Source of the DNA: Aporhodopirellula sallentina SM41 | GTDB lineage: Bacteria > Planctomycetota > Planctomycetia > Pirellulales > Pirellulaceae | Assembly (NCBI RefSeq): GCF_000346505.1 | Contig: NZ_ANOH01000117.1 | Coordinates: 1 to 64,000, forward strand | Length of the DNA stretch: 64,000 nt | Direction of reading: 5' to 3' | Shown here: one piece after another, positions 9,743 to 33,422 of the stretch | Position numbering within the stretch: the stretch's first letter is position 1 | How the letters are laid out: each line of letters starts with the position of its first letter | The notes under the pieces: model-generated | What the model was told of the DNA's origin: nothing | Seen by the model: the letters and a program-made list of their open reading frames with translations, nothing else | The model's database searches: none | Translations under genes and position numbers: made by a program

Positions 9743-10405
9743 CTAGCCTTTCGCCACGTGTGAGTCTTGCAAGGCTAGCGTCCACCCTTTTCGGTAGCGA
9801 ATGACGTTGGCGGGCGAACCGACCGCGACAGCACCGTCGGGAACCGCCCGAGTCACCACAGCCCCGGCCCCGACGATCGCGTCACGACCCACGTCGGCCA
9901 TTACAATCGCTCCGGCCCCGATCCAGGCTCCATCACCAATACGAACTTGCGAATACGTTTGTCCCTGTTCGTGCATAGACCGGTCGGAATCATCAGAATC
10001 ATGTTCCCGACCGCCACTGAGGATTTGAACCCCATCGGCCAACATGACCTCCTCACCAATATCAGCGAAACCAATCGAGCAAAAACGGCCAATGAAGGCT
10101 TTTTCGCCGACCACCGCTTCCGCCATTGAAAACACCGAGCTCCAGCCGATATAGACGTCGCGACCGCACTTAGACAAGGTAAACCGGTAAAACGCCTGAC
10201 GCGAAAAGACACCGCGTTTTCCTGGGATTTTCGCGATCGATTCGGATGCTGGAGTCATTGCCCGAGAACCGGTTAGACTCCTCATGAAAAAGTACATTGC
10301 CAGCCGCGGAGCAACATACACCAAAAAACAGCACTGGATACTGCGTTTGATCCATCGAGATGCTTGTTTTGGTGACGACCGAACAACATGCGTTTTGTCA
10401 CTCAT
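9743..10405 (-). CDS. Left-handed beta-helix (hexapeptide) acyltransferase
   Basis: 220 residues from ATG at 10405 (MSDKTHVVRSS), which overlaps the upstream GT4 stop by 8 nt. An upstream in-frame start at 10555 would run 158 nt into that gene and is unlikely. The N-terminal half is basic with a short hydrophobic stretch (CCFLVYVAPRLAMYFF). The rest shows imperfect hexapeptide repeats: EKAFIGRFCSIG, DGAWIGAGAIVMADVG and DAIVGAGAVVTRAVPDG, ending in the VGSPANVIRYRKG seen in WbbJ/LacA-type enzymes. It probably O-acetylates an EPS sugar from acetyl-CoA in the cytoplasm. The WbbJ-like call is firm; the acceptor is unknown. Confidence 0.85.
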   Translation of the reverse strand: MSDKTHVVRSSPKQASRWIKRSIQCCFLVYVAPRLAMYFFMRSLTGSRAMTPASESIAKIPGKRGVFSRQAFYRFTLSKCGRDVYIGWSSVFSMAEAVVGEKAFIGRFCSIGFADIGEEVMLADGVQILSGGREHDSDDSDRSMHEQGQTYSQVRIGDGAWIGAGAIVMADVGRDAIVGAGAVVTRAVPDGAVAVGSPANVIRYRKGWTLALQDSHVAKG

Positions 10406-11618: not shown

Positions 11619-12772
11619 TACGATCTTTTCAATTCGGAAGTCAGTGACCGATATAGCTGGTGGTAGGCGTCGTGCATCACCTGGTCGCTGAAGTGCTCAA
11701 AAGCCCTTGCCTTTGCATTCGAGCCGAGTCTTTCACGAAGGCCTTGTTCAGCACTTAGTCGACGGATCGAAGATGAGAATCCGTGGACGTCTCCAGATTC
11801 AATTAGGTAGCCATTTTCGCCATCCACGATTACTTCCGGAACTCCGCCAACGCGACTTGCAACGCATGGTAAACCGTTTGCCATGGCTTCGATTAGGGTT
11901 AGCGGGATCCCCTCGGAGATGCTGGTCAGCATCATCAAATCAGCGGCATTGATGATTTCTGCAACATCATATCGAGTCCCCAGCATGCAGACTTGATCCT
12001 CCAGGCCGTGCTGCTGAATTAATTCTTCAGTCGATGCTCGCAGTTCTCCATCGCCGACGATCACCAATTTGACATGGGGCACGTCTTTCAAATGCGTCCA
12101 AGCGAGAACGGCTGTTGCATGATCCTTCAGCGGATTAAGCCGTGCAACTTGGAACACGGCAACGTCATCCGGCTCCAGTTCCAATCCCTGCCGGCTCTGT
12201 TGACGAGCTTGCTCGCATCGAGCAAACCGTTCCAGATTGATTCCGTTGTAGACCACATCAATACGCGCCGCAGCGATTCCCTCCTTATCAATCAAGGCCT
12301 GCTTGACATTATTCCCTACTGCTACGCAGCGATCACGTCGCCGAAGCAGGACCTGGTTCGCGAGCACTCTTTTGGATTTGCGAACGTCGGGATAGTGTCG
12401 CCCGTGCTCGGTAAACAAAACCGGCGGCAGCGCTCGCCAGGCTTTCCACCAGGGGGAAAATCGACTCATCGCAGCATAAACAAACGGTGTGTATTGGTGT
12501 GCGTGAATCAAATCGACGTCGTGCTGCTGGCAAAAATGAGACAGCCGGCGCATCAATGATCGATCTAATCCGGGTTTTCGTTCGAAACACTCGACCGTGT
12601 ATCCCGAATCGATTAGCTGTTCCCCCAAAGTACCGACTTCATCGAGACACGCAAACACTGTGTGAAACTCCGGAGCTGCAGCGATCGCGAAATCGCGTGC
12701 AAGCATCTCAGCCCCCCCCACCGACAGTGAGTGCACGAACTGGCAAATGGTCACTTTCGAATCGGTTTTCAA
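11618..12772 (-). CDS. GT4 family glycosyltransferase
   Basis: 384 residues. FVHSLSVGGAEMLARDFA is the glycine-rich acceptor-side motif. HAHQYTPFVYAAM, LFTEHGRHYPDVR and VYNGINLERF lead to the donor half with VFQVARLNPLKDHATAV, VCMLGTRYDVAEIINAAD and SISEGIPLTLIEAMANGLP, then VASRVGGVPEVI. This is the standard GT-B/GT4 layout. It lies 19 nt after the MBOAT gene and overlaps the next GT4 by one base, and no membrane helix is seen. It is presumed to build the EPS repeat unit. Confidence 0.9.
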   Translation of the reverse strand: MKTDSKVTICQFVHSLSVGGAEMLARDFAIAAAPEFHTVFACLDEVGTLGEQLIDSGYTVECFERKPGLDRSLMRRLSHFCQQHDVDLIHAHQYTPFVYAAMSRFSPWWKAWRALPPVLFTEHGRHYPDVRKSKRVLANQVLLRRRDRCVAVGNNVKQALIDKEGIAAARIDVVYNGINLERFARCEQARQQSRQGLELEPDDVAVFQVARLNPLKDHATAVLAWTHLKDVPHVKLVIVGDGELRASTEELIQQHGLEDQVCMLGTRYDVAEIINAADLMMLTSISEGIPLTLIEAMANGLPCVASRVGGVPEVIVDGENGYLIESGDVHGFSSSIRRLSAEQGLRERLGSNAKARAFEHFSDQVMHDAYHQLYRSLTSELKRS

Positions 12773-15412: not shown

Positions 15413-16369
15413 TTAACGGAAAAACGAAAGCAAGGAAACGAGCATTGCAGTTGATCTCGCCGCAAAATAGGTGAGATAGATCAGGAAGTATTGTGGGGAC
15501 CGAACTAAGTTTCCTTTGGCTAGGATCGCGCGAATGGTGTAGGCGACGGGCAATGCTATCGTGACTAGGACACTAAATCCAAAAAACGGAGTTACTTGAC
15601 TGCGCCTAAAGCAGTCTACAAGAGCTATCACAATGCAAGAAACGCCCGCGAAGAAGTAAATTGGTGCGACCAGGCTTGGCACCTCTGCTAAGGTCCAGCG
15701 ACCAGAGCGAATGCCGCTAAAGCTGTGCTTTCCGTGCCAAATCTCTTTCTTGAAAAACTCGAGTAAGTTCTCTGGTTCTCGGTGGTGATACACTTGAATT
15801 TTCGGGTCGGAAACCATCGGGCCTAGACTGGATATGCGAAATCCAAGATCAGCGTCCTCGCAGGTCTCCAACTCTTCATTGAATCCACCAACCTCTTCAA
15901 AAGCCGTACGTCGCACCCAAACATTAGCCGACGGTATCCAGCGAACTGCCATTCTCTTGGGGCGTTTCTTGCGTTTTAAAAAACTCCACCCTCGTTGCAC
16001 CCAAGTCGTGCCATCTAACGGTACGCTTGGTGGACATCCGCCTCCTACAACTTCGTGATCCAAAAAGAGATCCATGCCGCTCTGCGTCCACCCCGGAGCC
16101 ACAGTGCAGTCCGCATCCAAAAACGCCACGACATCACCGCCTGATGCAGTAACTCCAGCGTTCCGTTGTGCGGCGATAGTGGAACGGGCATGCTGCACTA
16201 CACGAACACCTAGTGACCTGGCAATAGCGACGGTTTGGTCAGTTGAGCCTGCGTCAACCACTATGATCTCCACGTCGTAAGCCTCACTTGAGTCCTGCTT
16301 GACCGAGCGAATGCAATCGCCGATAAAACTCTCTTCATTTAAGCACGGAATAATGACGGACAATTTCAA
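15413..16369 (-). CDS. GT2 family glycosyltransferase with C-terminal membrane helices
   Basis: 318 residues. The GT2 fold begins MKLSVIIPCLNEESFIGDC; IIVVDAGSTDQTVAIA and VAFLDADCTVAPGW give the nucleotide-binding Asp and the DXD motif (DAD). CEDADLGFRISSLG is the catalytic ED-type region. Two or three hydrophobic helices follow after residue 230. Its ATG overlaps the stop of the double-GT2 gene by 4 nt. It is a likely EPS chain-building enzyme at the inner membrane. Confidence 0.9.
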   Translation of the reverse strand: MKLSVIIPCLNEESFIGDCIRSVKQDSSEAYDVEIIVVDAGSTDQTVAIARSLGVRVVQHARSTIAAQRNAGVTASGGDVVAFLDADCTVAPGWTQSGMDLFLDHEVVGGGCPPSVPLDGTTWVQRGWSFLKRKKRPKRMAVRWIPSANVWVRRTAFEEVGGFNEELETCEDADLGFRISSLGPMVSDPKIQVYHHREPENLLEFFKKEIWHGKHSFSGIRSGRWTLAEVPSLVAPIYFFAGVSCIVIALVDCFRRSQVTPFFGFSVLVTIALPVAYTIRAILAKGNLVRSPQYFLIYLTYFAARSTAMLVSLLSFFR

Positions 16370-18822
16370 TGTTGCATCTCCGATGAAGCCTGCGGATCAC
16401 CAAAACCGGAACGCGTCGCTGGATTCCAGCTTGAAGTCGTATGCCCCAACAATTCCATCAAGATCCCCCATCCCATACCAAGCATTACTACATGGCCGAA
16501 AGCCAATAGCCTTCCAAAGGCAAACTGTCGAATCCAATACTCAGGCAAAATCCATGGCATTACGTTGACGGCGACAAACAACACAGATCCACTCGCTAGC
16601 CAATACGGCGTAGATATAGAAATCGCAACTATTGCGAGCAATGCAGTGAGCAGTAGAAACGGAGTTGCCCAACGAGCTAGCTTGTGGAATACAAATGCAA
16701 TAAACGGAAATCCCGTGTGTGGCATCGGGTGCGTTCCTCGCTGCAAGCATTGGACGACACCACGCCCCAATCGCTCCCTGCGACGAAATTCATCGCTCAC
16801 ACGGGTACAAGAATTTTCAAAGGCTCTAGCCATCGCGACAGTTTGAATCGTTCGCCCTTGATTTAGCGCCGCGGCAGAAATTGAAAAATCATCAAGGATA
16901 CAGTCGAATGCTGGCGGAATAAATGACTCTCGACGGATCGCGTAGAGCCCACCATCCACACAGACAGCAGACTTCCACGCGGATTCCCAGGTCAGCACCT
17001 GAAATTCAAATGTCTGGTAGTCTCCTTCACATCGAAGTAGTTCATTTGGAGACTTAAGGCGGACATCCGCAACCGTACAAGCAACCAAAGGATCCTTCAG
17101 GCCGGCGACCAAATGTTTGGCAGCATCGGCATCTACATTGACGTTCGCGTCGGTCAGCAGTAGCACGGAACCTATGGAAGCATTAAAGCCAACCTTCAAG
17201 GCAGTAGCCTTTCCACCTCGGTTGGGCAGGCCAATAAACTTGATGCACTTGCCAAACTCCGACGCAATTTCAGCCGTTCTGTCTTCACTAGCGTCGTCGA
17301 CAACAACCACCTCAATGCAGTCACTCGGATAGTTCAATTTGAGACTATTTTGAATTTTTTTCTCGATGCAAACCTCTTCATTCCGTGCTGGGATAATGAC
17401 ACTCAGCATCGGTAGCTTCGGATCGGTATTCGACTCAACCGCCTGTGAGCTTAATTGCCGCTCATTCAATTTCGCGTTTGCTTTAAGAACCAAAGGAAAT
17501 GCAATGTGGGAACTTACCAAGCTAACGCAGCAAACAGCGAGAGTTGCCTGCGGGAACAACAAACTTGCCGCGATCGCGATCATCAGCAACAAAGGCAGCA
17601 ACCACCGGAATGACCTACCTCGCGACGTCTTCTGCATTTGAACAGACTGCTCACGGTCAGGTTTCCACGTTGCGTGTTTTCGCCCCACACAGTAGTGGAG
17701 GATCCCGTGAGCCGCAGCTAGGTTTCCCAAACAGAAGTAGAATGGGATTGAGAAAAGCCGAAGTGCTCGCAACCGTTGAATTGCACCCAATGCGGCCAAG
17801 CTACAGAATGCTGTTTGTCCTCCGCATAAAGCAATGGCAATCCAACTATTTCCAGTCACGGCAGAAGCGCTGGCTAACAACCAAGCCACGAGTATCAAGA
17901 AGGCGGTAAACCAACGCAATACTTTATGACTGATCAGATGAAAGGCAAACAAGCCTGTTCGAAACGGGTTAGCAGCAGGCCATTCTCGAACAAATGCCCG
18001 GAAACTGCGATTAGCGATCCGGACTTTACGTCGATATTCGCCGCCAAAAGAGCCGGCAACTCGCTCCACACAGACAGCATCAGGTTCGTAGACCCCTCGG
18101 TAACCCAACTGAATAATTTGCAGAGGATTGATGAAATCATTGATATCGTCGTCACGTAGCGGTTTAAATAGTGACCGCCGTATTGCATAAATTGCACCAT
18201 CTCCACCAACGACTGAGTCAACTCGGCTTTCCCATCGTTTCAGCAAAGTCTCATACTTCCAGTAAAACCCTTCCGACTCACTAACCTGGTCACCTTCGGA
18301 CTCTAAGTACTTTTGCTGGCCGACCACGTAACCGACGGTGGGGTCACGAAAGTGCTTCACGAGATACTGAATGGCATCTGGTCGAAACATTGCATTGGCG
18401 TCGGTAAATACAACGAAATTGTGTTTGCACTCCGGGACAAACCGCGTCAAACCCGCTGATTTACCGCGACGCTCAGGCATTCTAGCCAGACGCACATCAG
18501 TCGCGTCGAACCCCTTGACAATTTCGTCGGTGCCGTCATCAGAGCAATCTGAAATGACGATACATTCAAGCCGCTCCTTCGGGAAATTGAGATCCGCTAC
18601 GTTTTGAAGCTTGTCTAGGATCACCTCTGCTTCATTGTAGGCACTGATGACAATACTAACGCCTGGCGAAAGCTCGTCATTTGCCACGTCACTGAGATTT
18701 CGGTGTCTGTGATTAATTAGGCAACCGAGCCCCCAAAGCCACAACGGATAGCCAAGCCAAGGCCAAGCAGCGATAGCAAGAAGCACGATGCTAGTTCCCC
18801 AGAGATGCCAACCTGTCATCAA
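16366..18822 (-). CDS. Tandem fusion of two GT2 glycosyltransferase domains, multi-pass membrane protein
   Basis: 818 residues holding two complete processive-type GT2 units. Unit 1 (residues about 50-400) has VSIVISAYNEAEVILDKL, VFTDANAMFRPDA, SVVGGDGAIYAIRR, DDINDF and RRKVRIANR, then several helices. Unit 2 (about 470-800) has LSVIIPARNEEVCIEKK, LLTDANVNVDADA, VCVDGGLYAIRR, CILDDFSISAAAL and EFRRRERLGRG, then helices. Both keep the DXD-like DAN and the acidic catalytic residues, so both could be active. Single-unit relatives are normal in EPS loci; the fusion suggests two consecutive sugar additions by one polypeptide. It overlaps both neighbours by 4 nt. Confidence 0.9.
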   Translation of the reverse strand: MMTGWHLWGTSIVLLAIAAWPWLGYPLWLWGLGCLINHRHRNLSDVANDELSPGVSIVISAYNEAEVILDKLQNVADLNFPKERLECIVISDCSDDGTDEIVKGFDATDVRLARMPERRGKSAGLTRFVPECKHNFVVFTDANAMFRPDAIQYLVKHFRDPTVGYVVGQQKYLESEGDQVSESEGFYWKYETLLKRWESRVDSVVGGDGAIYAIRRSLFKPLRDDDINDFINPLQIIQLGYRGVYEPDAVCVERVAGSFGGEYRRKVRIANRSFRAFVREWPAANPFRTGLFAFHLISHKVLRWFTAFLILVAWLLASASAVTGNSWIAIALCGGQTAFCSLAALGAIQRLRALRLFSIPFYFCLGNLAAAHGILHYCVGRKHATWKPDREQSVQMQKTSRGRSFRWLLPLLLMIAIAASLLFPQATLAVCCVSLVSSHIAFPLVLKANAKLNERQLSSQAVESNTDPKLPMLSVIIPARNEEVCIEKKIQNSLKLNYPSDCIEVVVVDDASEDRTAEIASEFGKCIKFIGLPNRGGKATALKVGFNASIGSVLLLTDANVNVDADAAKHLVAGLKDPLVACTVADVRLKSPNELLRCEGDYQTFEFQVLTWESAWKSAVCVDGGLYAIRRESFIPPAFDCILDDFSISAAALNQGRTIQTVAMARAFENSCTRVSDEFRRRERLGRGVVQCLQRGTHPMPHTGFPFIAFVFHKLARWATPFLLLTALLAIVAISISTPYWLASGSVLFVAVNVMPWILPEYWIRQFAFGRLLAFGHVVMLGMGWGILMELLGHTTSSWNPATRSGFGDPQASSEMQH

Positions 18823-20461: not shown

Positions 20462-21820
20462 CTAACCCCTAGCTCCCGCAACTAAGTCTCGCACACGCTT
20501 GTATGCTGATTTCAGAATACCCCAAATGAGTTTTCGATCACTATCATTGAGCCAGAGTATTTCACGTAGCGAGCGTTTGTTAATACGCATGAAGAGCGCT
20601 AGCACGACCGTCGACATGCATAGGTACGATATGCTCGTCGCAAGTCCGGCCCCTACAACACCCAGCCTGGGGATCAACCAGCAGTTGGCCCCGACATTAA
20701 TCAACAGTGCGATCGCTGACGCGATTGTGCCAATCCCCGGACGTCCACGAGCAGCTAAATCGACCGTTAACAGCTTGAAGACCGGAAAGAGACAGATTCC
20801 AGGAAGCAATGCAAGAAAGGGGTAATACGAGTCGCCAAATTCCTTTCCGTACAATAGGTGGATCGCAGGAGAGCCGACGAACACTCCTACCACTGACATT
20901 AGTGTCAGAATTAGTATTGAGAAACGAACAGTTCGGAGCGTTCTTTCACAACCGTCCATGGCGTCCGCAGTCGCGACCCGGGAGAAAAGTGGCGCCACTG
21001 CAGAGTTGGGGATCAGCCACATGAGCTCGGCCATCCCTACTGCAAGCGAGTAGATTCCGACTGAAAAGTCCCCATCGAAATGCTTTAACAACGCTAAATC
21101 CACTCTGTAATTCAAGAAGTTAATCACAAGCAGGGCGTGGGACTTCAGACCGTAAGTCAAGTTCTGTGCAATGAAATCGCCGCTCCAAAACGGGTCAAAA
21201 TGAACGTCTTCTCGCGTCAACCAGCCGATCGTTACTATCTGCACCACCGTTGATGCCAGTAAGCCAACCAGGAGGCCCGCTAGTCCAAGGTCAAAGTACC
21301 AGACTGCGATGACGACAAGTGAAAAATTTACTAACGCCTTGATTAGTGACGCAGCATTCACCTCATTGATTTTCCCCTGGCCAATGAGGATTCTCGTACC
21401 GTAGTTTATCAAAATATAGTTCAAGGCCAGTAATGCACCAATCACCAAAAAGTTGATAGGCAATCCTGACCAAATCGAGCGATGCAAATTCCATGAAAGG
21501 GTAAAAGCACTCACTCCGATCAGCCAAAGAATAACTCCGGAGACAATGGCGGCCGAAACAATTTGGGAGTTTCTGTACTTGTCTTTCGCGATGGCAAATG
21601 AAAAGGAGGCACCCAGGCCAAGACTGAAAAACATAAATCCGCAGTGAGCCAGAAGGTCAATGAGAGCTGCCTTGCCCTTGAGTTCCGGACCTAAAATCCG
21701 TGCTACCATTGCACCGCCGACAACGCTGATCGCTATCAGCACGATTTGTGTGGCGAGCGTGGATGCCGATTCAAGAAAAAAGCTATCTCGTTTTCCCGCG
21801 AGTTTGCTACGAGACGTCAC
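20462..21820 (-). CDS. wzx: Lipid-linked oligosaccharide flippase (Wzx, MOP superfamily)
   Basis: 452 residues and about 12-14 helices. It begins at GTG 21820 (the G is shared with the TAG stop of the upstream acetyltransferase). The N-terminal LATQIVLIAISVVGGAMVARILGPE is the usual polysaccharide-flippase opening, followed by LGLGASFSFAIAKD, and a second half with IHLLYGKEFGDSYYPFLAL and PRLGVVGAGLATSISYL. It should turn the undecaprenyl-linked EPS repeat to the periplasm. It is the only flippase seen in this window, and the family call is firm. Confidence 0.9.
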   Translation of the reverse strand: MTSRSKLAGKRDSFFLESASTLATQIVLIAISVVGGAMVARILGPELKGKAALIDLLAHCGFMFFSLGLGASFSFAIAKDKYRNSQIVSAAIVSGVILWLIGVSAFTLSWNLHRSIWSGLPINFLVIGALLALNYILINYGTRILIGQGKINEVNAASLIKALVNFSLVVIAVWYFDLGLAGLLVGLLASTVVQIVTIGWLTREDVHFDPFWSGDFIAQNLTYGLKSHALLVINFLNYRVDLALLKHFDGDFSVGIYSLAVGMAELMWLIPNSAVAPLFSRVATADAMDGCERTLRTVRFSILILTLMSVVGVFVGSPAIHLLYGKEFGDSYYPFLALLPGICLFPVFKLLTVDLAARGRPGIGTIASAIALLINVGANCWLIPRLGVVGAGLATSISYLCMSTVVLALFMRINKRSLREILWLNDSDRKLIWGILKSAYKRVRDLVAGARG

Positions 21821-22380
21821 TATTCCCGTCCGCCCTTTTCGTCTGTTCTCGCCGGGCTCCCAATGACACCGTCGTCGGCCTCGACGTCGCTAAGGACAAC
21901 TGAGTTTGCGCCGAGAACCACTCGGTCACCGATATGAATCGCCCCGAATACTTTTGCCCCCGTAAACACTGTGACTTGGCTTCCAACTACTGGGTAACGG
22001 GCTTTTGATTGCGATGAATCTCTTCGAACGGCACCAATTGTAATTCCATTGTAAAGGGTGGCCATTTCTCCTAACGCGACCCCTTCTCCCACCACTATAT
22101 TTTGAGTGTGAGCTAGCATAAGACCGGAGCCAATCGACGCACCTAAGCTGCATTCGAAACCGGTTAGAACCTCATTCATACGTTTTAGAATGGCGGCGAG
22201 CCTTCAAACTAGTTTTTTTGTCGCCAGATACTGCGACAGTCTCATTAGTACAACCGCCAGCACTCTCCCTTCAATAACGCAGCGATAGATGACACTACGC
22301 ATACGAACGCCAGGTTCATGCTCTCTTATGTCAACCAAGAAGCACTCGCTAAGTGATTTGCAGATCACATCGATGCTCAT
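21820..22380 (-). pseudogene. Serine O-acetyltransferase-like hexapeptide protein with an in-frame TGA
   Basis: Reading from ATG at 22380 (MSIDVICKSLSECFL), the frame is open to the TGA at 22206-22204, then continues in the same frame to the stop at 21820. The sequence around the stop (RLSQYLATKKLV, stop, RLAAILKRMNEVLTG) matches one continuous CysE/SAT-type protein: a helical part, then GASIGSGLMLAHTQNIVV, LGEMATLYNGITIG and VLGANSVVL hexapeptide repeats. The TGA could come from CGA or TGG by one change. A 119-residue beta-helix could still be made by restarting at ATG 22179. The gene overlaps murB by 32 nt and the flippase by one base. Alternatives are a base-call error or read-through; a selenocysteine is unlikely because I see no hairpin support. 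Confidence 0.75.
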
Positions 22381-23317
22381 GAGCAGGAACTTGTTGACCG
22401 GTCGTCTTGACGTACCTGACCTCGCAATTGAGCAAAAAACCAGTTGCCTCGAAGACACGGTTTCTGACCGCATGAACGATACTCAAGACGTCAGAAGACG
22501 AAGCATTGCCGAGATTCACGATAAAATTAGCGTGCTGCTCAGGGATTTTCGCATTGCCAATTTGGAATCCTTTGAAACCGCACTTCTCGATAATGGCACC
22601 GGGCGGGCCAAACGCCGAATAGTTTTTGGGGTCGCTCAGAAAGACTGATCCACAGTTTGGATAACGACGTGGAAATTTCTTCCTTCTGTTTCGCAGAATT
22701 TCACGCATCCGATCTAGAATTTCTGCGGCATCACCATGAACGCAACTCAATTCAACCCGGGTGATCACCAATCGCGAATGCTGCAAAGCAGATTTACGAT
22801 ATGCGAATTCGCACGCTTTTTGATCAAGTTGAAGTTCCTCGCCAGCACGGTTTATCGCGTGAACCCTGCGTACGTTTGATCCGATCCCCTGCCGAAGGCT
22901 GCCTCCGTTCATTAACACCAATCCACCGAGCGTGCCCGGAATCCCGACTGCGTGCTCTAAGCCACTTAACCCTGATTTACCAATGCAACGCACTAGTTTC
23001 GGTACGAAAACACCGGCTTCCGCGACTACATCGCGGCCCTTGATTTGGAAACTCGATAGATTGCGGCCAAGCTTCACCACCGCGCCGCGAACACCGCTGT
23101 CATCAAAGAGAAGATTGCTGCCATCCCCAATGAAGAGATGGGGTATTTCATATTCGCGTAAACACTTTATTAGCAAACACAGCTCAGTCGACGACGTCGG
23201 CTGCACCAGCAAGTCTGCAGGACCTCCAATTTTCCACCAACTATGGTCACGAAGAGGAGCGTCAAAACTTGAAAGACCGACGTTCTGTCGAGCAACCTTT
23301 TCTAATACGCTACGCAT
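22349..23317 (-). CDS. murB: UDP-N-acetylenolpyruvoylglucosamine reductase (MurB)
   Basis: 322 residues from ATG 23317 (MRSVLEKVARQ), which overlaps the murA stop by 8 nt; a GTG 15 bases upstream is also possible. FAD-binding features are SWWKIGGPADLLVQP and FIGDGSNLLFDDSG; LEHAVGIPGTLGGLVLMNGG is the MurB signature. The active-site part keeps CGSVFLSDP (proton-donor Ser, residue 229 counted from the GTG), PGAIIEKCGFKG, PEQHANFIVN and a C-terminal Glu in LNCEV. It reduces UDP-GlcNAc-enolpyruvate to UDP-MurNAc in the cytoplasm. All key residues are present. Its operon is an EPS cluster, not a division/cell-wall cluster, which is unusual. Confidence 0.92.
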   Translation of the reverse strand: MRSVLEKVARQNVGLSSFDAPLRDHSWWKIGGPADLLVQPTSSTELCLLIKCLREYEIPHLFIGDGSNLLFDDSGVRGAVVKLGRNLSSFQIKGRDVVAEAGVFVPKLVRCIGKSGLSGLEHAVGIPGTLGGLVLMNGGSLRQGIGSNVRRVHAINRAGEELQLDQKACEFAYRKSALQHSRLVITRVELSCVHGDAAEILDRMREILRNRRKKFPRRYPNCGSVFLSDPKNYSAFGPPGAIIEKCGFKGFQIGNAKIPEQHANFIVNLGNASSSDVLSIVHAVRNRVFEATGFLLNCEVRYVKTTGQQVPAHEHRCDLQIT

Positions 23318-24596
23318 AGTCAATGTCACCACCGAGATTCTTTAGCTTGGCCACCAAGGAGTTGTAGCCTCGCTCGACTTGCCACGCATCTTCAATGATC
23401 GTTTCGCCCGCATGTGAAGAAAGCCCAGCCAGCACTAAAGCGATACCAGCTCTCAAATCAAGTGCCCGAACGCGACTTCCACGAAGAGATGTACCGCCAT
23501 CAATCATCAACAGGTTGTCCTCCGTACGATACTGCATTCCCATTTTGGCCAGCTCTGCCGCATAACCGTACCTGCCTGGAAATCGCAAATCGACGATCAC
23601 ACTTTGCCCCCGAGCCGCCGCGCCAAACACCGCAAACAATGGCTGCATGTCCGAATTGATTCCAGGGTAGGGTCCCGTGCTGATCTCAAAAGGGTAGCAG
23701 CACCCCCCGCTAACAATCAAACTGCTGTCGCCCCGGAAAAACCGTGCACCACTTTCTCTAAGATGGATAAGCGGAACCTCAAGATCCCCAAATGGAAAGT
23801 TGTGGATCTCGATCGTTCCATTTGTTACCACGGCCGCAATAAGCCATGTGAGTGCTTCCATGTTGTCAGCCAAAACTTCGTACTTGGTTCCATTGAGACT
23901 CTCCTTTCCTGTGATCTCAATTCGCTCTTGACCATAAACCTCAATCTCGGCGCCCATGGTTCGCAGGAATCCAATCAGATCAAGAATCTCGGGGCGAATA
24001 TGGGGGTTCCAAATATTCGTGACTCCTTCGGCAAGACAGCCACAAATGATGCCATTCTCCGTGGCACCGGTTGAGCGTATTGGTAGGTGTATGTCGCATC
24101 CTTGCATCCGCCCACTAAGGCTCGCAGAGAGATACCCATCTTGCATCTTGACGGTCGCTCCAAATTTCTTGAGCAACATTTCGTGAAGATCGTATTTTCT
24201 GTCGCCCAAATTGCACCCACCGGGCAGTGGAACCCTTCCTTCACCAAACCGAGTGGTAAGGGCCCCCAAGACCAGCAACGTGTTTCGTATTGAACGCTGA
24301 TCCCACTGGAGATCCGTATTCAATGGTTGATTTTCGGAAATCGTGATGCCGCCGCTCTCGGTAATTGATGTCTTTCCGAGACGTGAAAGCATCTCAACAT
24401 GAACCTTTGCATCAAGAAGCTCATTGGGATAGTTCGATAGTGTGATTCGCTCCGACGTTAAAAGTGAGGCCGCCAAGAGACGGAGCACACTGTTCTTCGC
24501 GCCGCTTAAATGGACTTCGCCATGTAATCGCGAAGGTCCGATCCGGTAGCAGAAGTTCTCCGACGGTGGAGTGGAAATATGGTTCATGTAAATCAA
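23310..24596 (-). CDS. murA: UDP-N-acetylglucosamine 1-carboxyvinyltransferase (MurA)
   Basis: 428 residues, normal length. The EPSP-synthase-type fold starts LHGEVHLSGAKNSVLRLLA with the substrate-binding Lys-Asn pair. The loop VPLPGGCNLGDRKYDLH keeps the fosfomycin-target Cys (residue 128), and PYPGINSDMQPLFAVF keeps the catalytic Asp; DLRAGIALVLAGL is the C-terminal Arg region. It moves enolpyruvyl from PEP to UDP-GlcNAc. The start ATG overlaps the stop of the upstream glycosyltransferase by 4 nt, and murB follows with an 8 nt overlap, so the pair is translationally coupled. It is probably a second copy devoted to EPS sugar synthesis, an inference that needs a genome-wide count of murA. 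Confidence 0.92.
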   Translation of the reverse strand: MIYMNHISTPPSENFCYRIGPSRLHGEVHLSGAKNSVLRLLAASLLTSERITLSNYPNELLDAKVHVEMLSRLGKTSITESGGITISENQPLNTDLQWDQRSIRNTLLVLGALTTRFGEGRVPLPGGCNLGDRKYDLHEMLLKKFGATVKMQDGYLSASLSGRMQGCDIHLPIRSTGATENGIICGCLAEGVTNIWNPHIRPEILDLIGFLRTMGAEIEVYGQERIEITGKESLNGTKYEVLADNMEALTWLIAAVVTNGTIEIHNFPFGDLEVPLIHLRESGARFFRGDSSLIVSGGCCYPFEISTGPYPGINSDMQPLFAVFGAAARGQSVIVDLRFPGRYGYAAELAKMGMQYRTEDNLLMIDGGTSLRGSRVRALDLRAGIALVLAGLSSHAGETIIEDAWQVERGYNSLVAKLKNLGGDIDYA

Positions 24597-25831
24597 TCTG
24601 GAATTGGCAGTTTTGTCAAACCAAAAAACTGTAGAACTCTTTTTGCAGTGTGAATCGAGTTGTCGCGAACAATTGGAAGTAGGCGTTGGAGAAAACTAAG
24701 CCATCGTGCTATTCTGCTGGCCTGGTGGCCGCATTCCAGAAGACTCCTGTAGATTGCAAGCGTCGTGGGCACGCCCGCGCTCACCTCGATCTGGTCCTCG
24801 AGGTATTGCTTACCGAATGCACCGATTTCTTCTTGATGCTTCGGATTGAGCATGAGCATTTTGATTGCCGCGGCTAGTGCTTCGGCAGGTTGCGGTTCAC
24901 TTACGTTTCTTCCGCTGAAATTGAACCAAGCAATGTCATCAACCGATCGTGAGTCGACGACCCCCGCGTACCCATTCTTCCCCACAACGATCGTGGGGCG
25001 TCCGATCGCCATCCCTTCGAAGGCACTTCGGCCTACTCCGAGAACGAGATTCGAGTGATGAAGGTAACGAAATGCCTTGGCCACAGGTCCGGTAAAAAGC
25101 ACTTTACCCGACCCATATTGGTTGCAAATTGATTCGCCCCGACGCTTCGCGCTTTCAAACAATTCACCTTTGCCACCCATCATCACCAGCTGAATTTTCA
25201 ATCCGTCTTTAATGAGCAATTCAACTGAGTCGAGCACACTATTGATGGAATCAATTTTCGAACTGTCAAACGAGCTGATCATCATGATCTTGAACGCTTG
25301 TGGATCTAAGCCAATCGACTTGGCCTCGCAATCGCCGAGCACGAAGCGGGCATCATGGATTTCCGCATGATCAATTCGCGACCGCATCACCACAACAGCG
25401 TCCGGATTCCACTTGTAGATATCCGTCATCCGTTTTTTTTGCTCTTCCGAAAAGACAATAATCGACGGAGCAGTTGGAAGGTTGTAAAATGGGTCGACAC
25501 CTCCGCAAAGCGTACACAGAACAGGGACATTGCTGATGATGCTCGCCGGATACACATTCATGTAAGATCGTGCATCGAATGCATGAATCAGGTCGATCTT
25601 ATGCTTTTTGACAACTTCCAATATCCGTTTTGTTACTGCCGGCGACGCCCAAGTGAAGTACGATTCACGCACGCCGTGATAAATGGGGATGTCGACGACT
25701 TCCACATCCATCTCTTTTTTCATCTCATCCATCAACTCTCCCTCGCCGCCCGCGAAGACCGGCGTTACGCCATGCTTCCGGAGCTCACGAGCGATCGTCA
25801 ATGCGGATAAAACGTGGCCGCCACGCAGCAA
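24593..25831 (-). CDS. GT4-like glycosyltransferase, start uncertain
   Basis: 412 residues from TTG 25831, which starts inside the first domain. In-frame sequence upstream reads GEEPSNGPKVLFVVFKL before LLRGGHVLSALTIAREL, so the first beta strand (KVLFVVF) is coded but has no ATG, GTG or TTG start before the TAG near 25937. CTG at 25903 or ATT at 25918 are the only near-cognate options I see. Further motifs are DLIHAFDARSYMN, IIVFSEEQKKRMTD, MMISSFDSS, GKVLFTGPVAKAFRYLHHSN and GRSAFEGMAIGRP, the GT4 donor pattern. It is the first gene of the tight operon and overlaps murA by 4 nt. The function is probably repeat-unit assembly. Confidence 0.82.
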   Translation of the reverse strand: MLRGGHVLSALTIARELRKHGVTPVFAGGEGELMDEMKKEMDVEVVDIPIYHGVRESYFTWASPAVTKRILEVVKKHKIDLIHAFDARSYMNVYPASIISNVPVLCTLCGGVDPFYNLPTAPSIIVFSEEQKKRMTDIYKWNPDAVVVMRSRIDHAEIHDARFVLGDCEAKSIGLDPQAFKIMMISSFDSSKIDSINSVLDSVELLIKDGLKIQLVMMGGKGELFESAKRRGESICNQYGSGKVLFTGPVAKAFRYLHHSNLVLGVGRSAFEGMAIGRPTIVVGKNGYAGVVDSRSVDDIAWFNFSGRNVSEPQPAEALAAAIKMLMLNPKHQEEIGAFGKQYLEDQIEVSAGVPTTLAIYRSLLECGHQASRIARWLSFLQRLLPIVRDNSIHTAKRVLQFFGLTKLPIPD

Positions 25832-25924
25832 CTTAAAGACTACAAACAGAACCTTTGGGCCGTTTGAAGGCTCTTCACCAAGGTAGGAATCGCGAGCGTC
25901 CAGATGATTTACCCCAATATTTGA

Positions 25925-26357: not shown

Positions 26358-27713
26358 TTAGTTCGATATTGACATAGCCGGAAAAACAACTGCATCTTCC
26401 TGCGCTAAACTATCCACATTCGGTTCGTCTTGCTTTTCACAAGAATTGCTAAACTGCCTCACATAAGTCGACATACACGACCCCAACGCTAGGAAAACGT
26501 AACTGGATTCGGACAAAGCAGCTGCAGAAAACATGCTCGCAACGAAATAACCTGCCAACCCCGCTATGACAGATAAACGCACTATCTCCAACGCCGACTG
26601 ATCGTCTGGAACAGTCGAAAAACGGTACAATAACGGACGGGTGCGAAGTGATCGGTACCAAGCTAACCAAAAACTGCCGAAGTACGCGAACGCCGCAAGC
26701 AAGCCGCACCCAGTCGAAATTTCTAGGAAGATGTTATGCAACTCTTTTCGTGAGTTAGGCAGATCAGCGTAGCTAGGCACAAGCATCGATCCGCACCAAG
26801 GCCCGACCCCCAACAGCGGGTAGTCGCGTGTAATTTCCAAACCGGCTTTCCATACGACAAACCGGCTCGCCGCTGAACCGTCCAAATTGTCCCGGGATTC
26901 AAATGCCGAAGCAAACTCTTTCACGACTGGCGGACCAGCAAGCAAAGCCCCAACAATCAGGCCACACGCGAAAACGGTGTTGATGTACGTCGTTTTACGT
27001 ACCATTAGCACCAACACACCGAACGCTGCGATTGCTCCCAACATCGCACCACGTGATTCCAAGAGCATGATTTGATGTGTAGCAAGAACAGCAATCGATA
27101 GAAATAAAACTCGCTGCCATGTTCTTTGGAGCAGCAGTCCCAGAGCCAAGCTACCACTGAGCATGGGAATCGTGGCACTGGAGTAAATGTTATTATCCCC
27201 ACGCATTCCGAAGGCCCAACCATTTCGGGAATACGCCGAAAACCCATCTTGGAAGTACTGCACGTTGATTTGCAGAGAATTGTAGCCCTGGGCGACGCAA
27301 ATTGCCATCAACAGAACAAGCATCTTTTTCGGCGTATCAATCAGCCCCATAGCCAAACAAGCCATCAAGATAATCTTCCATAAATACCGCATATAGAATG
27401 CGGTCAGGTCCGGTCCGATCGTAGAAAGCGAAGACATAAATGCCAACGCAATGAACGCAATCATCCCAAACATCGGCGACATCAGGCTGATCCGAAGCTT
27501 AAAGCCTGGGAACCCGCCAAGCCCCAAGCCGATCAGTGTGCAAACCGTAATCATCGTTTGATAGGGAAAGTATGATGGCATCGCCCATCGCCAATTCCAT
27601 TCAGGAATCAAGAACGTGAAGAAATAAAACGCAACGATGCCCCACCACGGCCTGGTTAGTGCGACCCCACATCCAATTACGACCAGGGCAATGGTAAGTA
27701 GAGCGCCTAACAT
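26358..27713 (-). CDS. O-antigen ligase/polymerase-like membrane protein (exosortase-associated ligase type)
   Basis: 451 residues, about eleven helices. The opening MLGALLTIALVVIGCGVALTRP, then FTFLIPEWNWRW, resembles the exosortase A-associated O-glycosylation ligase family (Wzy/WaaL superfamily). The large periplasmic loop holds SRFVVWKAGLEITRDYPLLGVGP and LHNIFLEISTGCG, the Arg and His regions seen in the family. It may polymerise EPS repeats or attach glycan to a carrier. No other Wzy candidate is visible in the window, so it is the best guess for the polymerase, though the ligase reading is equally open. Confidence 0.8.
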   Translation of the reverse strand: MLGALLTIALVVIGCGVALTRPWWGIVAFYFFTFLIPEWNWRWAMPSYFPYQTMITVCTLIGLGLGGFPGFKLRISLMSPMFGMIAFIALAFMSSLSTIGPDLTAFYMRYLWKIILMACLAMGLIDTPKKMLVLLMAICVAQGYNSLQINVQYFQDGFSAYSRNGWAFGMRGDNNIYSSATIPMLSGSLALGLLLQRTWQRVLFLSIAVLATHQIMLLESRGAMLGAIAAFGVLVLMVRKTTYINTVFACGLIVGALLAGPPVVKEFASAFESRDNLDGSAASRFVVWKAGLEITRDYPLLGVGPWCGSMLVPSYADLPNSRKELHNIFLEISTGCGLLAAFAYFGSFWLAWYRSLRTRPLLYRFSTVPDDQSALEIVRLSVIAGLAGYFVASMFSAAALSESSYVFLALGSCMSTYVRQFSNSCEKQDEPNVDSLAQEDAVVFPAMSISN

Positions 27714-28405: not shown

Positions 28406-29761
28406 CTAACACTTGCGGATTTTTTCGCGGAGATCTGCGATGTTCGCGGTCGCGTTGCGGGTGTCGATCACAAGCAAACTGTGCTTGACGATCTCCTCAT
28501 AGTCGAAGGCGGTGTGATCCGTCGCGATCAGGACTGCGTCGCAGGACTCGAGGAATTCCGGCGTCAGCTCCTGGCTCTCCATCACCGGGAGATCGTAGTG
28601 CCTCATCGCAGGCAAGCATGGGACGTGCGGATCGCTGTAGAATACTTCCGCGCCGAGTTCTAGCAGTAGCTCCATGAGCTCGAACGATGGACTTTCACGC
28701 GGGTCATCAACATCCTTTTTGTAGGCGACCCCCAACAAACAGATTTTACTCCCCCGAACTGGCTTTCCGAACTCGTTGAGGAACTTGACGGACTGCGAAA
28801 CAACATACCCTGGCATTGCCCGGTTGACTTCGCCGGCCAATTCGATGAACCGTGCATTACCGCCTTGCTTTCGCGCCAACCAAGACAGGTAAAAGGGATC
28901 AATCGGGATACAATGGCCGCCGAGTCCAGGACCGGGGTAAAAGGCCTGGAACCCAAACGGCTTCGTCTTCGCCGCGTTGATGACCTCCCACACGTCGATC
29001 CCCATCCCGTCAAAAAGCACCTTGAGCTCATTCACCAAAGCAATATTGACGGCGCGATAGATATTCTCTAGCACCTTGGCCGCTTCGGCGACTTCACAGC
29101 TGCTGACCGGAATCACTCCCGCTACGGCCGACTCATACAAGACCTTGGCGATTTCGAGACTTGTTTCGTCAATGGCACCGACAACTTTAGGAATCCCGGC
29201 GGCCGAGAAATCCGGGTTGCCGGGATCTTCACGTTCAGGGCTGTACGCTACGAAGAAATCAACGCCTGCCTTCAGACCGGACTTTTCCAAGATCGGCACC
29301 ATGACGTCACGGGTCGTCGTGGGGTAGGTCGTGCTTTCGAGCACGACAAGCTGACCTGGCCGCAGTGACTTAGCGATCGATTCACAAGTGCCTACCACGT
29401 ACTTCAAGTCGGGGTCGCGGGCATCGTCGAGTGGTGTCGGGACACAAATCAGCAAGACATCGGGCTCGCCGAGACGCTCCATCTGGTCAGTCGCGTCGAA
29501 TGCCTCCTTCCCCAGCCAAGATGAAATTTTCTCGTCAACGATGTGCTTTATATAGCTCTCCCCCGCTAGCAACGAAGCCACCTTAGAACTGTCGATATCG
29601 TACCCGGTGCACCGGAATCCGGAGTTGATAAATGCATCGATCAGCGGGAGCCCAACATACCCGAGCCCTATGACGCCGACGACGCATTGGCGAGCTGCGA
29701 TAGACTCGACAAGCGATTGACCAGAAGCTGCGAGGACGGGGGAGTGACTGACAATTGACAT
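28406..29761 (-). CDS. UDP-sugar 6-dehydrogenase (UDP-GlcNAc/ManNAc dehydrogenase, WbpA/WecC type)
   Basis: 451 residues. The NAD site is VVGVIGLGYVGLPLIDAF (residues about 27-44). VPTPLDDARDPDLKYV and ESTTYPTTTRDV are typical of the UDP-N-acetylhexosamine branch. The catalytic Cys is at 284 in GPGLGGHCIPIDPFYLSW, and NIYRAVNIALVNELK is the dimer/active-site helix. It oxidises C6 of a UDP-sugar to give an acidic sugar for the EPS. With the wecB-like gene at the left edge broken, a WbpA-type reaction on UDP-GlcNAc is more likely than WecC on UDP-ManNAc, unless an epimerase exists elsewhere. It stands alone, with long spacers on both sides. Confidence 0.9.
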   Translation of the reverse strand: MSIVSHSPVLAASGQSLVESIAARQCVVGVIGLGYVGLPLIDAFINSGFRCTGYDIDSSKVASLLAGESYIKHIVDEKISSWLGKEAFDATDQMERLGEPDVLLICVPTPLDDARDPDLKYVVGTCESIAKSLRPGQLVVLESTTYPTTTRDVMVPILEKSGLKAGVDFFVAYSPEREDPGNPDFSAAGIPKVVGAIDETSLEIAKVLYESAVAGVIPVSSCEVAEAAKVLENIYRAVNIALVNELKVLFDGMGIDVWEVINAAKTKPFGFQAFYPGPGLGGHCIPIDPFYLSWLARKQGGNARFIELAGEVNRAMPGYVVSQSVKFLNEFGKPVRGSKICLLGVAYKKDVDDPRESPSFELMELLLELGAEVFYSDPHVPCLPAMRHYDLPVMESQELTPEFLESCDAVLIATDHTAFDYEEIVKHSLLVIDTRNATANIADLREKIRKC

Positions 29762-30394: not shown

Positions 30395-31309
30395 TCAAAC
30401 CGCATTCACATAGCTACCGCACCCATCAACCAAACACACTGAGTCCTCCATCGCTCCGAACCGATGACCCGAAATCAACCTGCTTAATTTCGACGCCGTC
30501 GCCGCTAACCCGACACAGTGCCGAAAGCGACTCTTTATACCCACGCCCATTACACGCGGCTGATCGGGATCAATTTCCCACGGGTGGATGTAAAACATTG
30601 CCGGACGGTTCTGCTGCTCTAGCTTTCGAATCGCTGCCGATGTCGCCGCACGCGGGAACAGGCGAAAGTAGCCTCCACCAATCGGCACAGTAACGCCACC
30701 GACCTTTTCAAGCGTGGGAGGGAACTCGACCAGCTTTCCGCTACCGATCTCTCTCGTATGAATCTCTCTCTTTGCACCTGGCATCCCATAGCGATCATGG
30801 CCATTGATCGGAAAAATACTGCTATCGGTAGTAAAGCCGTGCTCAACCAACACCTCCAACGCCCATAACGAACGCTCAACGATCGAGAAACTGGGTGCCC
30901 GATACGCAGTCACCTCCACGCCGCATGCGTTACAGATCGCATCTTTTGAGGCAGCGATATCGCCCGCGAATTCTTCGGGCGTCAGATCGTATACCAAGCG
31001 ATGCCAATAGCCATGCGAGGCAACCTCGTGACCAGCCTTCGCGATACGCTGAACCAGCGCCGGGAAACGCTCGGCAACCCAGCCCAGGACGAAGAAGGTT
31101 CCGCGAACTTGGCAATCATCAAAGAGGGAAAGCATTCTCTCTGTATTTGCGACTACACGGCTTTCGTACGTGTCCCACTGTTTCCGGCTGACGCGATGTT
31201 CGAACGCCGAGACTTGGTAGTAGTCTTCGACATCGACTGTTAATGCATGGCAGACCGCCTCCGAGCTGGAATGGGATGCGGGCGCGGAATGAGAAGATGA
31301 AATACTCAT
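30395..31309 (-). CDS. Polysaccharide deacetylase, XrtA/PEP-CTERM-associated type (DUF3473)
   Basis: 304 residues. The NodB-type domain has HALTVDVEDYYQVSAFEHR (Asp-Asp-like metal motif), GTFFVLGWVAERFPALVQ and EVASHGYWHRLVYDLTP (metal-binding His-x(3)-His: SHGYWH). APSFSIVERSLWALEVL and the C-terminal YIHPWEIDPDQPRV belong to the exosortase-linked deacetylase family, which is characteristically placed in PEP-CTERM/EPS loci. It removes acetyl groups from amino sugars of the EPS. It has no signal peptide. Its start ATG shares one base with the stop of the sugar-phosphate transferase gene, so the two are coupled. Confidence 0.92.
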   Translation of the reverse strand: MSISSSHSAPASHSSSEAVCHALTVDVEDYYQVSAFEHRVSRKQWDTYESRVVANTERMLSLFDDCQVRGTFFVLGWVAERFPALVQRIAKAGHEVASHGYWHRLVYDLTPEEFAGDIAASKDAICNACGVEVTAYRAPSFSIVERSLWALEVLVEHGFTTDSSIFPINGHDRYGMPGAKREIHTREIGSGKLVEFPPTLEKVGGVTVPIGGGYFRLFPRAATSAAIRKLEQQNRPAMFYIHPWEIDPDQPRVMGVGIKSRFRHCVGLAATASKLSRLISGHRFGAMEDSVCLVDGCGSYVNAV

Positions 31310-32277
31310 TAGCGGGGGCGACGAACCGCACCTGACGAAGGAGGGATCTCACCGGCGCCTGCAAAAGCAAACGCCGCTTGAAACTGTTCGCTGTCCTCGC
31401 ACGACGCTATTGGTGCTGACTGCAGGCACACAACACTAGGTGGAAGAATTCGATCGCCATCTTCTTCAATGCAGGCATCCTTCACGAGATCCAGTCGGTC
31501 CAAGCACATCAGTCGTGTCACTATGACGCCTTTGAGCCCAATGAGGCGAAGCGCAGTGGCCATCATCATCCGTGCATCGAGCCACAAGCTGGCGTTCTCG
31601 ATATAATGAAGGTCTAGAATCTGCTTGCGGCGTACGTCTGCGATGCTCTCATCTGGGGGAAGGTTGATCTGGGCTAACCCCGTTACGCCTGGTTTGACGG
31701 CTATTCGTTGATAGTATCCATCGATTTCTTTGGCGAGATCGTCACAGATCTGAGGCCGTTCGGGGCGAGGTCCGACGAGAGACATGTCTCCACGGCACAC
31801 ATTCCAAAGTTGCGGCAATTCGTCGAGATGCAGCTTGCGAAGCATCTGGCCGACACAGTTGACCCGAGGGTCATTCTTGCAAGCCCACTGTGGCTTGCCT
31901 GGCTTTTCGGCATCCACAACCATGGATCGCAGCTTGATGATATCAAACGTCTGTCCATTGAGGCCCACCCGCTCCTGCCGGTAAAAGCCAGGGCCACGAG
32001 AAGTGAAGCGTACCAAGAGATACAGAGCTGCAATGAATGGCGATGCAAAGAACAGCATCAGTCCGCCGAGTGCACGATCAACGAAGTATTTTCGTTGGAA
32101 AAAAACTTTGCAGCGTTCCGGGCAATGCAGGCGATAGAACTGTGGGGATTGGCGGGCGATGGAGTCGATGTCGTCTTCCCCCACCGAGTCGTTCTGCCCA
32201 GTGTTTCGCCAAGAGGCATGTTCCCCGTCCAGGTGGCTGTGATGCTTCCCTCTCGATGACAGTGATCCCGCTGACAT
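31309..32277 (-). CDS. Undecaprenyl-phosphate sugar-1-phosphate transferase (initiating enzyme, PF02397)
   Basis: 322 residues from ATG 32277, chosen because AGGAG lies six bases upstream; an ATG at 32382 without such a site would add 35 His/Gln-rich residues. The core begins FFQRKYFVDRALGGLMLFF with a membrane helix, then FYRQERVGLNGQTFDIIKLRSM, ARKDPRV-like WACKNDPRVNCVGQMLRK, LDELPQLWNVCRGDMSLVGPRPERP and YYQRIAVKPGVTGLAQIN, the complete bacterial sugar transferase signature. It lacks the four-helix N terminus of WcaJ-size enzymes, so it is a short PglC-like core with a polar N-terminal extension. It starts EPS repeat synthesis on the lipid carrier. Confidence 0.92.
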   Translation of the reverse strand: MSAGSLSSRGKHHSHLDGEHASWRNTGQNDSVGEDDIDSIARQSPQFYRLHCPERCKVFFQRKYFVDRALGGLMLFFASPFIAALYLLVRFTSRGPGFYRQERVGLNGQTFDIIKLRSMVVDAEKPGKPQWACKNDPRVNCVGQMLRKLHLDELPQLWNVCRGDMSLVGPRPERPQICDDLAKEIDGYYQRIAVKPGVTGLAQINLPPDESIADVRRKQILDLHYIENASLWLDARMMMATALRLIGLKGVIVTRLMCLDRLDLVKDACIEEDGDRILPPSVVCLQSAPIASCEDSEQFQAAFAFAGAGEIPPSSGAVRRPR

Positions 32278-33422
32278 GCCCTTCTCCTGGGGGTGAGTGT
32301 GGCTTTGTTGGGTGATGCGATGTTGATGTCGCGTATGTCCGGCAAGGGGGTGGGCACCCGTCTGTTCGGCAGTTCTGTTCATCCTAATGTGGGTGGGTTC
32401 AAAAAAAGGGGGGAGCCAGGATTATTCATAGAATTGGTGTACTTTCACATTGTGAGCGATTGGTCAATGTGATGACCGTTCGGTCGGGCGAGAGCGGTTT
32501 AGGAACGAAAAAAGCAGGTTTTCGCCACGTATTTCTTGCGTTCTTTTAAGGCGTTGTTGCCCGGTGGCACGAGCTCGATTGAAATCGAGCATTCGCATGA
32601 ATTTCTTTTTTATGTTGTGGTTGACGCAATCGCGAAGAGATCTGTTGCGTTGGCGTTGCCTGTTTTATCCGGCGTTTCTTGCGTGGAATCGCACCTGTCT
32701 GTCTAATTTGCGAGGGGTGTATGTTTGGTTGGGTAGCGGGGGCGGGGAAGCTTATTGATGACGTTCCCGAAGGGAGCATCTGAAGAATGGGGAGTTAAGA
32801 TTCGTTACAGCAGGGCGACTGAGTCACGTGTGTGCTCTGTGGAAGGAGATGCACTGTCGCTGGCAATTCAGAGGTGTAAGATCGTCCGTTGGTAAGTCCC
32901 TGGACTATTTAGGGGCTCTGCTGGCCTAAGGCTCTGTTGGCAGGATATGGCTTCAACGGATTGCTTATCAGGAGAAGAATTGGCACTCTCCTTTCGGTTG
33001 GCGTTCGCAGGAGGCGACGACCCCTGACGACTATCTGCACGTTCACTCGAGCAATTGAGAATTTGACGTTTCGGATCCTTGTAGCTGAATTTGCCAGAAT
33101 TCAGGCCGCCAAAGTGCCTGGCGGTGTCGGCTACATCATCTCTAGAAAATGCTCGTGCGTCCCGTAGCGGGCCTGTGCGAGTAGCTATGTAGCAGGCGCG
33201 GTGTCGCCCAAGGTCAACGACTATCTAGACGCGTCTGGCCTCGAATGGGACTCGATGCCCACGCCGCAAGTTCCGCGGGGGCGATGCTGCTTGCTTCGTT
33301 CGTGTTCCGACATCGTTCGCGGCGTTCGGTCGCCGACTTCTAGTGCTGGATGCGACGTGGATTCAGAAACAACAGGCAAGTGTTCATCGGATACTCAGGT
33401 TGCCGAGTTGATGTGGCTGTTT
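32278..33422. promoter_or_regulatory. 1.1 kb non-coding region, presumed promoter of the sugar-transferase/deacetylase pair
   Basis: No frame here resembles a protein family. The AGGAG ribosome-binding site of the sugar transferase is at about 32284-32288. Between 32383 and 33422 the sequence is T/G-rich on the plus strand with many short stops. At over 1 kb it is the longest gene-free stretch in the window, between genes on the same strand, so regulatory sequence, an unrecognised small RNA or a decayed gene are all possible. Confidence 0.35.

Follow-up and report, generated by a model that had tools for sequence, protein, structure and literature searches.

A 64,000-nucleotide stretch of the Aporhodopirellula sallentina SM41 genome (contig NZ_ANOH01000117.1, positions 1 to 64,000; hereafter the window) carries adjacent murA and murB genes within an exopolysaccharide (EPS) locus. 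As judged from sequence comparisons, the module made up of MurA, MurB, and a GT4 glycosyltransferase is real, conserved, and probably used to supply muramic acid, or a close lactyl sugar, for a surface polysaccharide. With somewhat better than even confidence, we favor the more specific reading in which the module makes UDP-N-acetylmuramic acid (UDP-MurNAc) that is inserted into a Wzx/Wzy exopolysaccharide or capsule. The pair would then form a dedicated nucleotide-sugar branch for this polymer. MurA would transfer enolpyruvate from phosphoenolpyruvate to O3 of UDP-N-acetylglucosamine (UDP-GlcNAc), the presumed acceptor, and MurB would reduce the enolpyruvyl group to a D-lactyl ether, giving UDP-MurNAc. 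The GT4 encoded upstream would presumably use this product to add MurNAc to an undecaprenol-linked repeat unit, which Wzx would flip and Wzy would polymerize into a polymer predicted to carry muramic acid.

The initial annotation of this DNA had described a translationally coupled MurA-MurB pair, with its catalytic residues kept, lying in a glycosyltransferase series that includes a flippase; at the level of sequence, this is borne out here. The window MurA is a full-length EPSP-synthase fold protein (PF00275, 222 bits) that exceeds the PRK09369 subfamily cut-off (370.9 > 297). Since it misses the TIGR01072 equivalog cut-off (358.9 < 392.7), we file it as a MurA-type subfamily member and not as an equivalog. 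MurB exceeds the NCBIfam cut-offs of PRK13905 (288.9 > 259) and TIGR00179 (208.6 > 144.5) and has both the FAD-binding and the MurB_C domains. By alignment, MurA keeps the Cys of its PGGC motif (residue 128, the equivalent of Cys115) together with the equivalents of Lys22, Arg120, Asp305, Arg331, Arg371, and Arg397, and MurB keeps Ser228, in a GSVF motif, and the C-terminal Glu303. The likely ATG of MurB (23317) lies within the 3′ end of murA (GACTATGCGTAG), an 8-nt overlap, and the stop codon of the GT4 gene overlaps a possible TTG start of MurA. For these reasons, the three genes look translationally coupled.

The pair and its surroundings are conserved in Rubripirellula obstinata, where MurA is 78.3% and MurB 70.0% identical to the window proteins. 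The window and R. obstinata share the gene order deacetylase, Wzy, GT4, MurA, MurB, acyltransferase, Wzx, so a chance grouping of the pair is not at issue. Nonsynonymous divergence (dN) between the two species is 0.178 for MurA and 0.233 for MurB; synonymous change is saturated, and no dN/dS ratios are given for that reason. Few nonsynonymous changes against a saturated synonymous background indicate that both genes have been maintained by purifying selection across this divergence.

Standard peptidoglycan is very unlikely to be the use of the pair, because MurC, D, E, and F were not found in the host assembly (8.19 Mb in 491 contigs, with an estimated completeness of 99.99%). Both matches to PF08245, the Mur ligase middle domain, have other assignments, namely, PgsB (522.8 > 222.7) and FolC (238.8 > 162.65). 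The assembly encodes one MurA, the window copy, and two MurBs, and its only other EPSP-fold protein (PF00275) is AroA (385 > 287.25). The second MurB (C38:17118-18026) scores below the family cut-off, and its catalytic Ser and Glu are replaced by Met and Asn, as they are in the three same-genus MurBs aligned; the gene beside it looks FtsQ-like by eye and has no Pfam or NCBIfam match. According to the initial annotation, a genome without another murA or murB would make these the peptidoglycan copies. The premise stands, in that the assembly has neither a further murA nor a second intact murB, but the rest of the pathway was not found, and we have set that conclusion aside.

The MurA-MurB pair is absent from all 12 same-genus genomes searched, each of which has a single PF00275 protein. 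No TIGR01072 match above 88.1 bits occurs in these 12 or in 12 other genomes of the same family, and eight same-family genomes are among the matchless genomes listed in a search with the window MurA (14 further matchless genomes stand outside that list). Of 15 genomes from the wider order, 4 encode a clear MurA, which is fragmented in one of them, and most of the genomes examined have one PF00275 protein. A divergent second MurA in the genus was considered and rejected: the TIGR01072 matches of 15 to 88 bits in the order are AroA-like. All 25 weak-match loci covered by this check resemble the AroA of the host genome much more closely than they do the window MurA, the weakest case (L009, in genome G014) scoring 107 versus 30 bits; further matches, nine of them in the genus, fall outside it. 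Each of the 12 same-genus genomes does have a MurB match, which suggests that MurB has been retained though apparently inactive, and one of them (G008) has a second, weaker match (C1:266994-267743, 98.3 bits). In several other MurBs of the Pirellulales, the catalytic Ser is exchanged for Cys (GCIF) and the Glu is kept. The same-genus genomes also have only two weak Mur-ligase-domain matches each and no MurA.

These losses agree with a 2025 paper reporting that murA, C, D, F, G, murJ, and ftsW were lost in Pirellulales, Isosphaerales, and Gemmatales (PMC12283558). They are in tension with a report of MurNAc and diaminopimelic acid in Rhodopirellula baltica (PMC4432640).

The window MurA belongs to a subfamily whose members are spread over six phyla. 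Six 8-residue patterns, run against named genomes, yielded 53 loci, an undercount given the patterns used, whose MurA is 54 to 78% identical to that of the window. The hosts include R. obstinata, many Bacteroidota, Pseudomonadota, a member of the Geobacteraceae, an Armatimonadota metagenome-assembled genome (MAG), and Microbacterium. Across 392 genomes of Planctomycetota, no MurA above 41% identity was found outside the host genome itself, among the matches listed. In a tree of 79 MurAs, comprising 31 subfamily members, the 30 best-scoring ordinary MurAs that these genomes also encode, and 18 from planctomycetes, the subfamily makes up one side of a branch with SH-aLRT support of 100; the tree was built by a fast approach and came with a program warning about long branches that join. 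An ordinary MurA, fragmented in two cases, was also present in 48 of 50 subfamily genomes (the search covered 50 of the 53 loci); only R. obstinata and one Sphingomonadales MAG were without one. In 45 of the 50, two MurBs score above the cut-off. Together with the missing MurC to MurF, the position of the subfamily in polysaccharide loci of six phyla supports the proposal, already made in the initial annotation, that the pair may serve to provide a nucleotide sugar specifically for a surface glycan.

The subfamily also occurs on plasmids: 7 of 55 matching records encode a MurA 58.9 to 64.5% identical to that of the window (next best, 38.6%), and they come from Rhizobium, Agrobacterium, and Qingshengfaniella. 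Three of these plasmids were examined; on both that are annotated, murB adjoins the gene, in one case amid polysaccharide genes and in the other with a GT2. No DNA match to the Shewanella subfamily member was found in Escherichia coli genomes, and hence no known O-antigen structure could be used. As a separate observation, Cys115 is replaced by Asp in 19 of the 30 ordinary housekeeping MurAs, presumably the 19 Bacteroidota rows, and is kept in all 54 polysaccharide-locus MurAs; Asp at this position is reported to give fosfomycin resistance (PMC4062475).

MurB is the most frequent neighbor of the subfamily. In 24 of the 53 loci, its start lies no more than 1.5 kb from MurA, and with wider stretches it is found in 47, always within 3.4 kb; near ordinary MurAs (flanks of about 1.5 kb) it was found in 0 of 30 and 0 of 32 loci. 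Neighbors were ranked without preselection over up to 10 kb on each side, less on short contigs, and named by eye except for MurA and MurB. After MurB come Wzx-like proteins (34 loci), the GT4 group described below (32), hexapeptide acyltransferases (31), SDR proteins (30), and nucleoside diphosphate (NDP)-sugar dehydrogenases (19). The catalytic Ser and Glu are kept in all 48 partner MurBs, window included, and in a tree of 74 MurBs the 28 partners are separated from 30 ordinary ones.

The GT4 encoded directly upstream of the window MurA has no NCBIfam family match at an E value of 1e-5. A profile that we call GT4-GGH gathers 33 such proteins in 32 of the 53 loci, with the invariant positions GGH, GG, S-E, GR-E, and NFS-R. 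In the window, it gives this protein 320.1 bits and the two other GT4s 13.4 and 9.2. The match reaches position 25855, upstream of the first ATG, GTG, or TTG (25831); the listed start is thus doubtful, and the true start may lie farther upstream or use an unusual codon. Solved relatives are distant: a group-1 glycosyltransferase (2jjm; E value, 1.8e-6), a bacterial alpha-1,3-N-acetylgalactosaminyltransferase (6.8e-6), and BshA (4e-4).

Among 40 relatives of the host, GT4-GGH was found in its own genome only (E value, 1e-12). In the family of Photobacterium pectinilyticum (Vibrionaceae by name), it is present in 3 of 296 genomes (E value, 1e-30; at most six candidates were scored per genome), and all three copies sit in polysaccharide loci with MurA and MurB. 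The MurAs differ: that of locus L130 belongs to the window subfamily, that of L244 to a sister lineage, and that of L246 is an ordinary MurA (582.2 > 392.7 bits), with an ordinary pocket and a PRK00046-type MurB in the same locus. Because three MurA lineages occur with one GT4, we infer that GT4-GGH uses the MurA-MurB product; since the L246 enzyme has an ordinary pocket, what all three lineages make is likely to be UDP-MurNAc. Five loci were examined in this family, from 15 genomes with two MurA matches. Loci L244 to L247 resemble the window in that MurA and MurB are accompanied by genes read by eye as those of a flippase and glycosyltransferases; two of these four have GT4-GGH. Unlike the window subfamily alone, the Photobacterium family loci bring together three MurA lineages, one of them with an ordinary pocket.

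Several observations weigh against UDP-MurNAc as the product of a fixed three-gene module. Six of the 53 loci lack MurB in the stretch examined, and 21 lack GT4-GGH, among them every one of the seven from Alphaproteobacteria. In Vibrionaceae, L245 and L247, two of the five loci examined, also have the pair without this GT4. The training set of the GT4-GGH profile came from the very loci in which it was counted. The partner MurBs fall into two groups in the tree, a pattern compatible with one joint origin or with more than one, and in an assembly of 491 contigs the gene absences are not absolute. Finally, a comparison of 54 subfamily rows with 62 ordinary MurAs (Enterobacter cloacae numbering, by alignment) revealed 34 diagnostic columns that set the subfamily apart, several of them at or near substrate-pocket positions. 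At six of the 34, the ordinary residue is nearly fixed (58 to 62 of 62). E188, A186, and I233, each present in all 62 ordinary MurAs, are replaced by R, H, and M in all 54 subfamily rows, as is V163 (60 of 62) by T. Positions 161, 232, and 327 are R, N, and R throughout the subfamily; R232 and I/V327, which are frequent in ordinary MurAs, are both replaced in every row. Val163 is reported to be part of the pocket for the diphosphate, and Asp305 of that for the glucosamine (PMC10500568). The catalytic Arg397 is kept in 53 of 54 rows, window included. The sister lineage has only some of the subfamily changes (K121, S304, R327, and Y334).

These pocket changes could mean a new acceptor or a release from product inhibition by UDP-MurNAc. 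In the former case, the subfamily would act on a sugar other than UDP-GlcNAc, such as an acidic or epimeric N-acetylhexosamine (HexNAc), to give a different UDP-lactyl (3-O-carboxyethyl) amino sugar, which the dedicated GT4 would insert into surface polysaccharides in several phyla. MurA, MurB, and GT4 would then be a widely exchanged cassette that has reached even a bacterium without a peptidoglycan pathway. There is a parallel for such a shift in NikO, a MurA relative of known structure that is among the matches and acts on UMP. We nevertheless regard this new-sugar proposal as unlikely, its cassette component included. After MurB, no enzyme that could make a special acceptor is near-universal in the loci, the best placed being the SDR and the NDP-sugar dehydrogenase, and therefore a common nucleotide sugar such as UDP-GlcNAc is the likelier acceptor. 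The same GT4 occurs together with an ordinary-pocket MurA in L246, and the altered residues may simply relieve feedback by UDP-MurNAc. A UDP-HexNAc dehydrogenase was considered as the maker of an acidic acceptor and rejected: an NDP-sugar dehydrogenase is encoded in the window, but its family is present in only 19 of the 53 loci. For the window enzyme, the next-best models are UDP-HexNAc dehydrogenases, below their cut-offs; the Photobacterium enzyme resembles UDP-glucose 6-dehydrogenase.

Two further explanations dispense with a working polysaccharide branch. In a lineage whose own MurA was lost, the pair might restore the UDP-MurNAc needed for some residual or unconventional peptidoglycan; this would fit the finding that the host has a sole MurA and a sole MurB with both catalytic residues, as well as the R. 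baltica report. Given that no MurC to MurF was found, that the 12 same-genus genomes do without MurA, and that the pair sits among GT4, Wzx, and Wzy genes, we consider it very improbable. Scarcely more probable is that the pair is an unused passenger, in this strain, of a horizontally moving polysaccharide cassette. The plasmid-borne members and the interrupted acyltransferase gene next to the pair (see below) are in keeping with such a history, but the full set of catalytic residues and the signs of purifying selection relative to R. obstinata speak for genes in use. The UDP-MurNAc branch feeding a surface polymer thus remains our preferred reading.

The window holds an initiating transferase, glycosyltransferases, a flippase, and a polymerase in one cluster, as in Wzx/Wzy-type loci, several of these components being assigned by Pfam or by NCBIfam matches below the cut-off (Table 1). 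An MBOAT protein is also among the neighbors of the pair.

Table 1. Features of the polysaccharide locus in the window
Feature	Coordinates	Strand	Basis or remark
MurA-type enolpyruvyl transferase, polysaccharide-locus subfamily	23310..24596	-	Open reading frame, profile scores, residues
MurB, short PRK13905-type form, Ser and Glu kept	22349..23332	-	Start probably the internal ATG
GT4 glycosyltransferase, GGH subfamily, proposed MurNAc (lactyl-sugar) transferase	24593..25831	-	Profile match
Wzx/MurJ-like lipid-linked oligosaccharide flippase	20462..21820	-	Profile matches
Wzy/O-antigen-ligase-like polymerase	26358..27713	-	PF04932
Hexapeptide acyltransferase gene, two pieces (22204-22473 and 21820-22179)	21820..22473	-	One frame, stop between
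NDP-sugar dehydrogenase	28406..29761	-	TIGR03026, 402.5 > 189.8
Polyprenyl glycosylphosphotransferase-like initiating enzyme	31309..32382	-	TIGR03025, 255.1, below cut-off of 295.55
GT2 glycosyltransferases, one double-domain and one single	15413..18822	-	Profile matches
Two more GT4 glycosyltransferases, outside the GGH subfamily	10398..12772	-	Low GT4-GGH scores

The acyltransferase gene is broken by an in-frame stop in the window and intact in R. obstinata (L093:12181-12777), to whose product the two pieces are 46.8% and 60.9% identical; as noted above, the family is present in 31 of the 53 loci. A PL14 polysaccharide-lyase-like domain and a disaggregatase-related repeat are encoded within this biosynthesis locus (18819-20459, minus strand). 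The deacetylase (30395-31309, minus strand) is of the XrtA-system type (350.2 > 276.2), and the polymerase is PEP_O_lig-like, with a score of 102.5 that lies below the cut-off of that family. Together, these two proteins suggest an exosortase-associated EPS locus.

Compared with canonical MurA and MurB (TIGR01072 and PRK09369; TIGR00179 and PRK13905), the window enzymes are alike in family, catalytic residues, and presumably reaction order. The window MurA differs in belonging to a separate subfamily with its own 34 diagnostic columns, in its location among polysaccharide genes, and in its host, where no MurC to MurF was found. The proposed product has a chemical precedent, since N-acetylmuramic acid, the very sugar predicted here, is found in the capsule of Vibrio vulnificus ATCC 27562 (Gunawardena et al. 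1998, as cited in PMC7247339); that capsule is known by chemistry, whereas the window polymer is known from genes alone. The O-antigen of Proteus penneri 62, to go by a reference title in PMC4515632, contains N-acetylisomuramic acid, likewise a lactyl ether of GlcNAc in a surface glycan; it is the S-lactyl epimer, unlike the D-lactyl ether proposed for the window. Our searches of the open-licence literature, which leaves most subscription papers aside, yielded neither a title nor an abstract on a MurA-MurB pair in a polysaccharide locus, and no gene route to capsular muramic acid. As far as that literature reaches, the module appears to be new as a gene system, with a function predicted from its genes.

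If the polymer does carry muramic acid, this sugar would be separated from peptidoglycan. The distribution of the subfamily suggests that muramic acid is also a building block of surface coats in many bacteria. A polysaccharide-locus MurA together with MurB and a GGH-type GT4 would provide a gene signature for muramic-acid or lactyl-ether polymers, the GGH-type GT4 being a candidate MurNAc-transferring glycosyltransferase, and the MurA subfamily combines a changed substrate pocket with the retained Cys that fosfomycin targets. The finding is also relevant to the continuing debate on peptidoglycan synthesis in Pirellulales. With muramic acid in the polymer, this sugar would be no safe proof of peptidoglycan in planctomycetes or of cell wall biomass in the sea.

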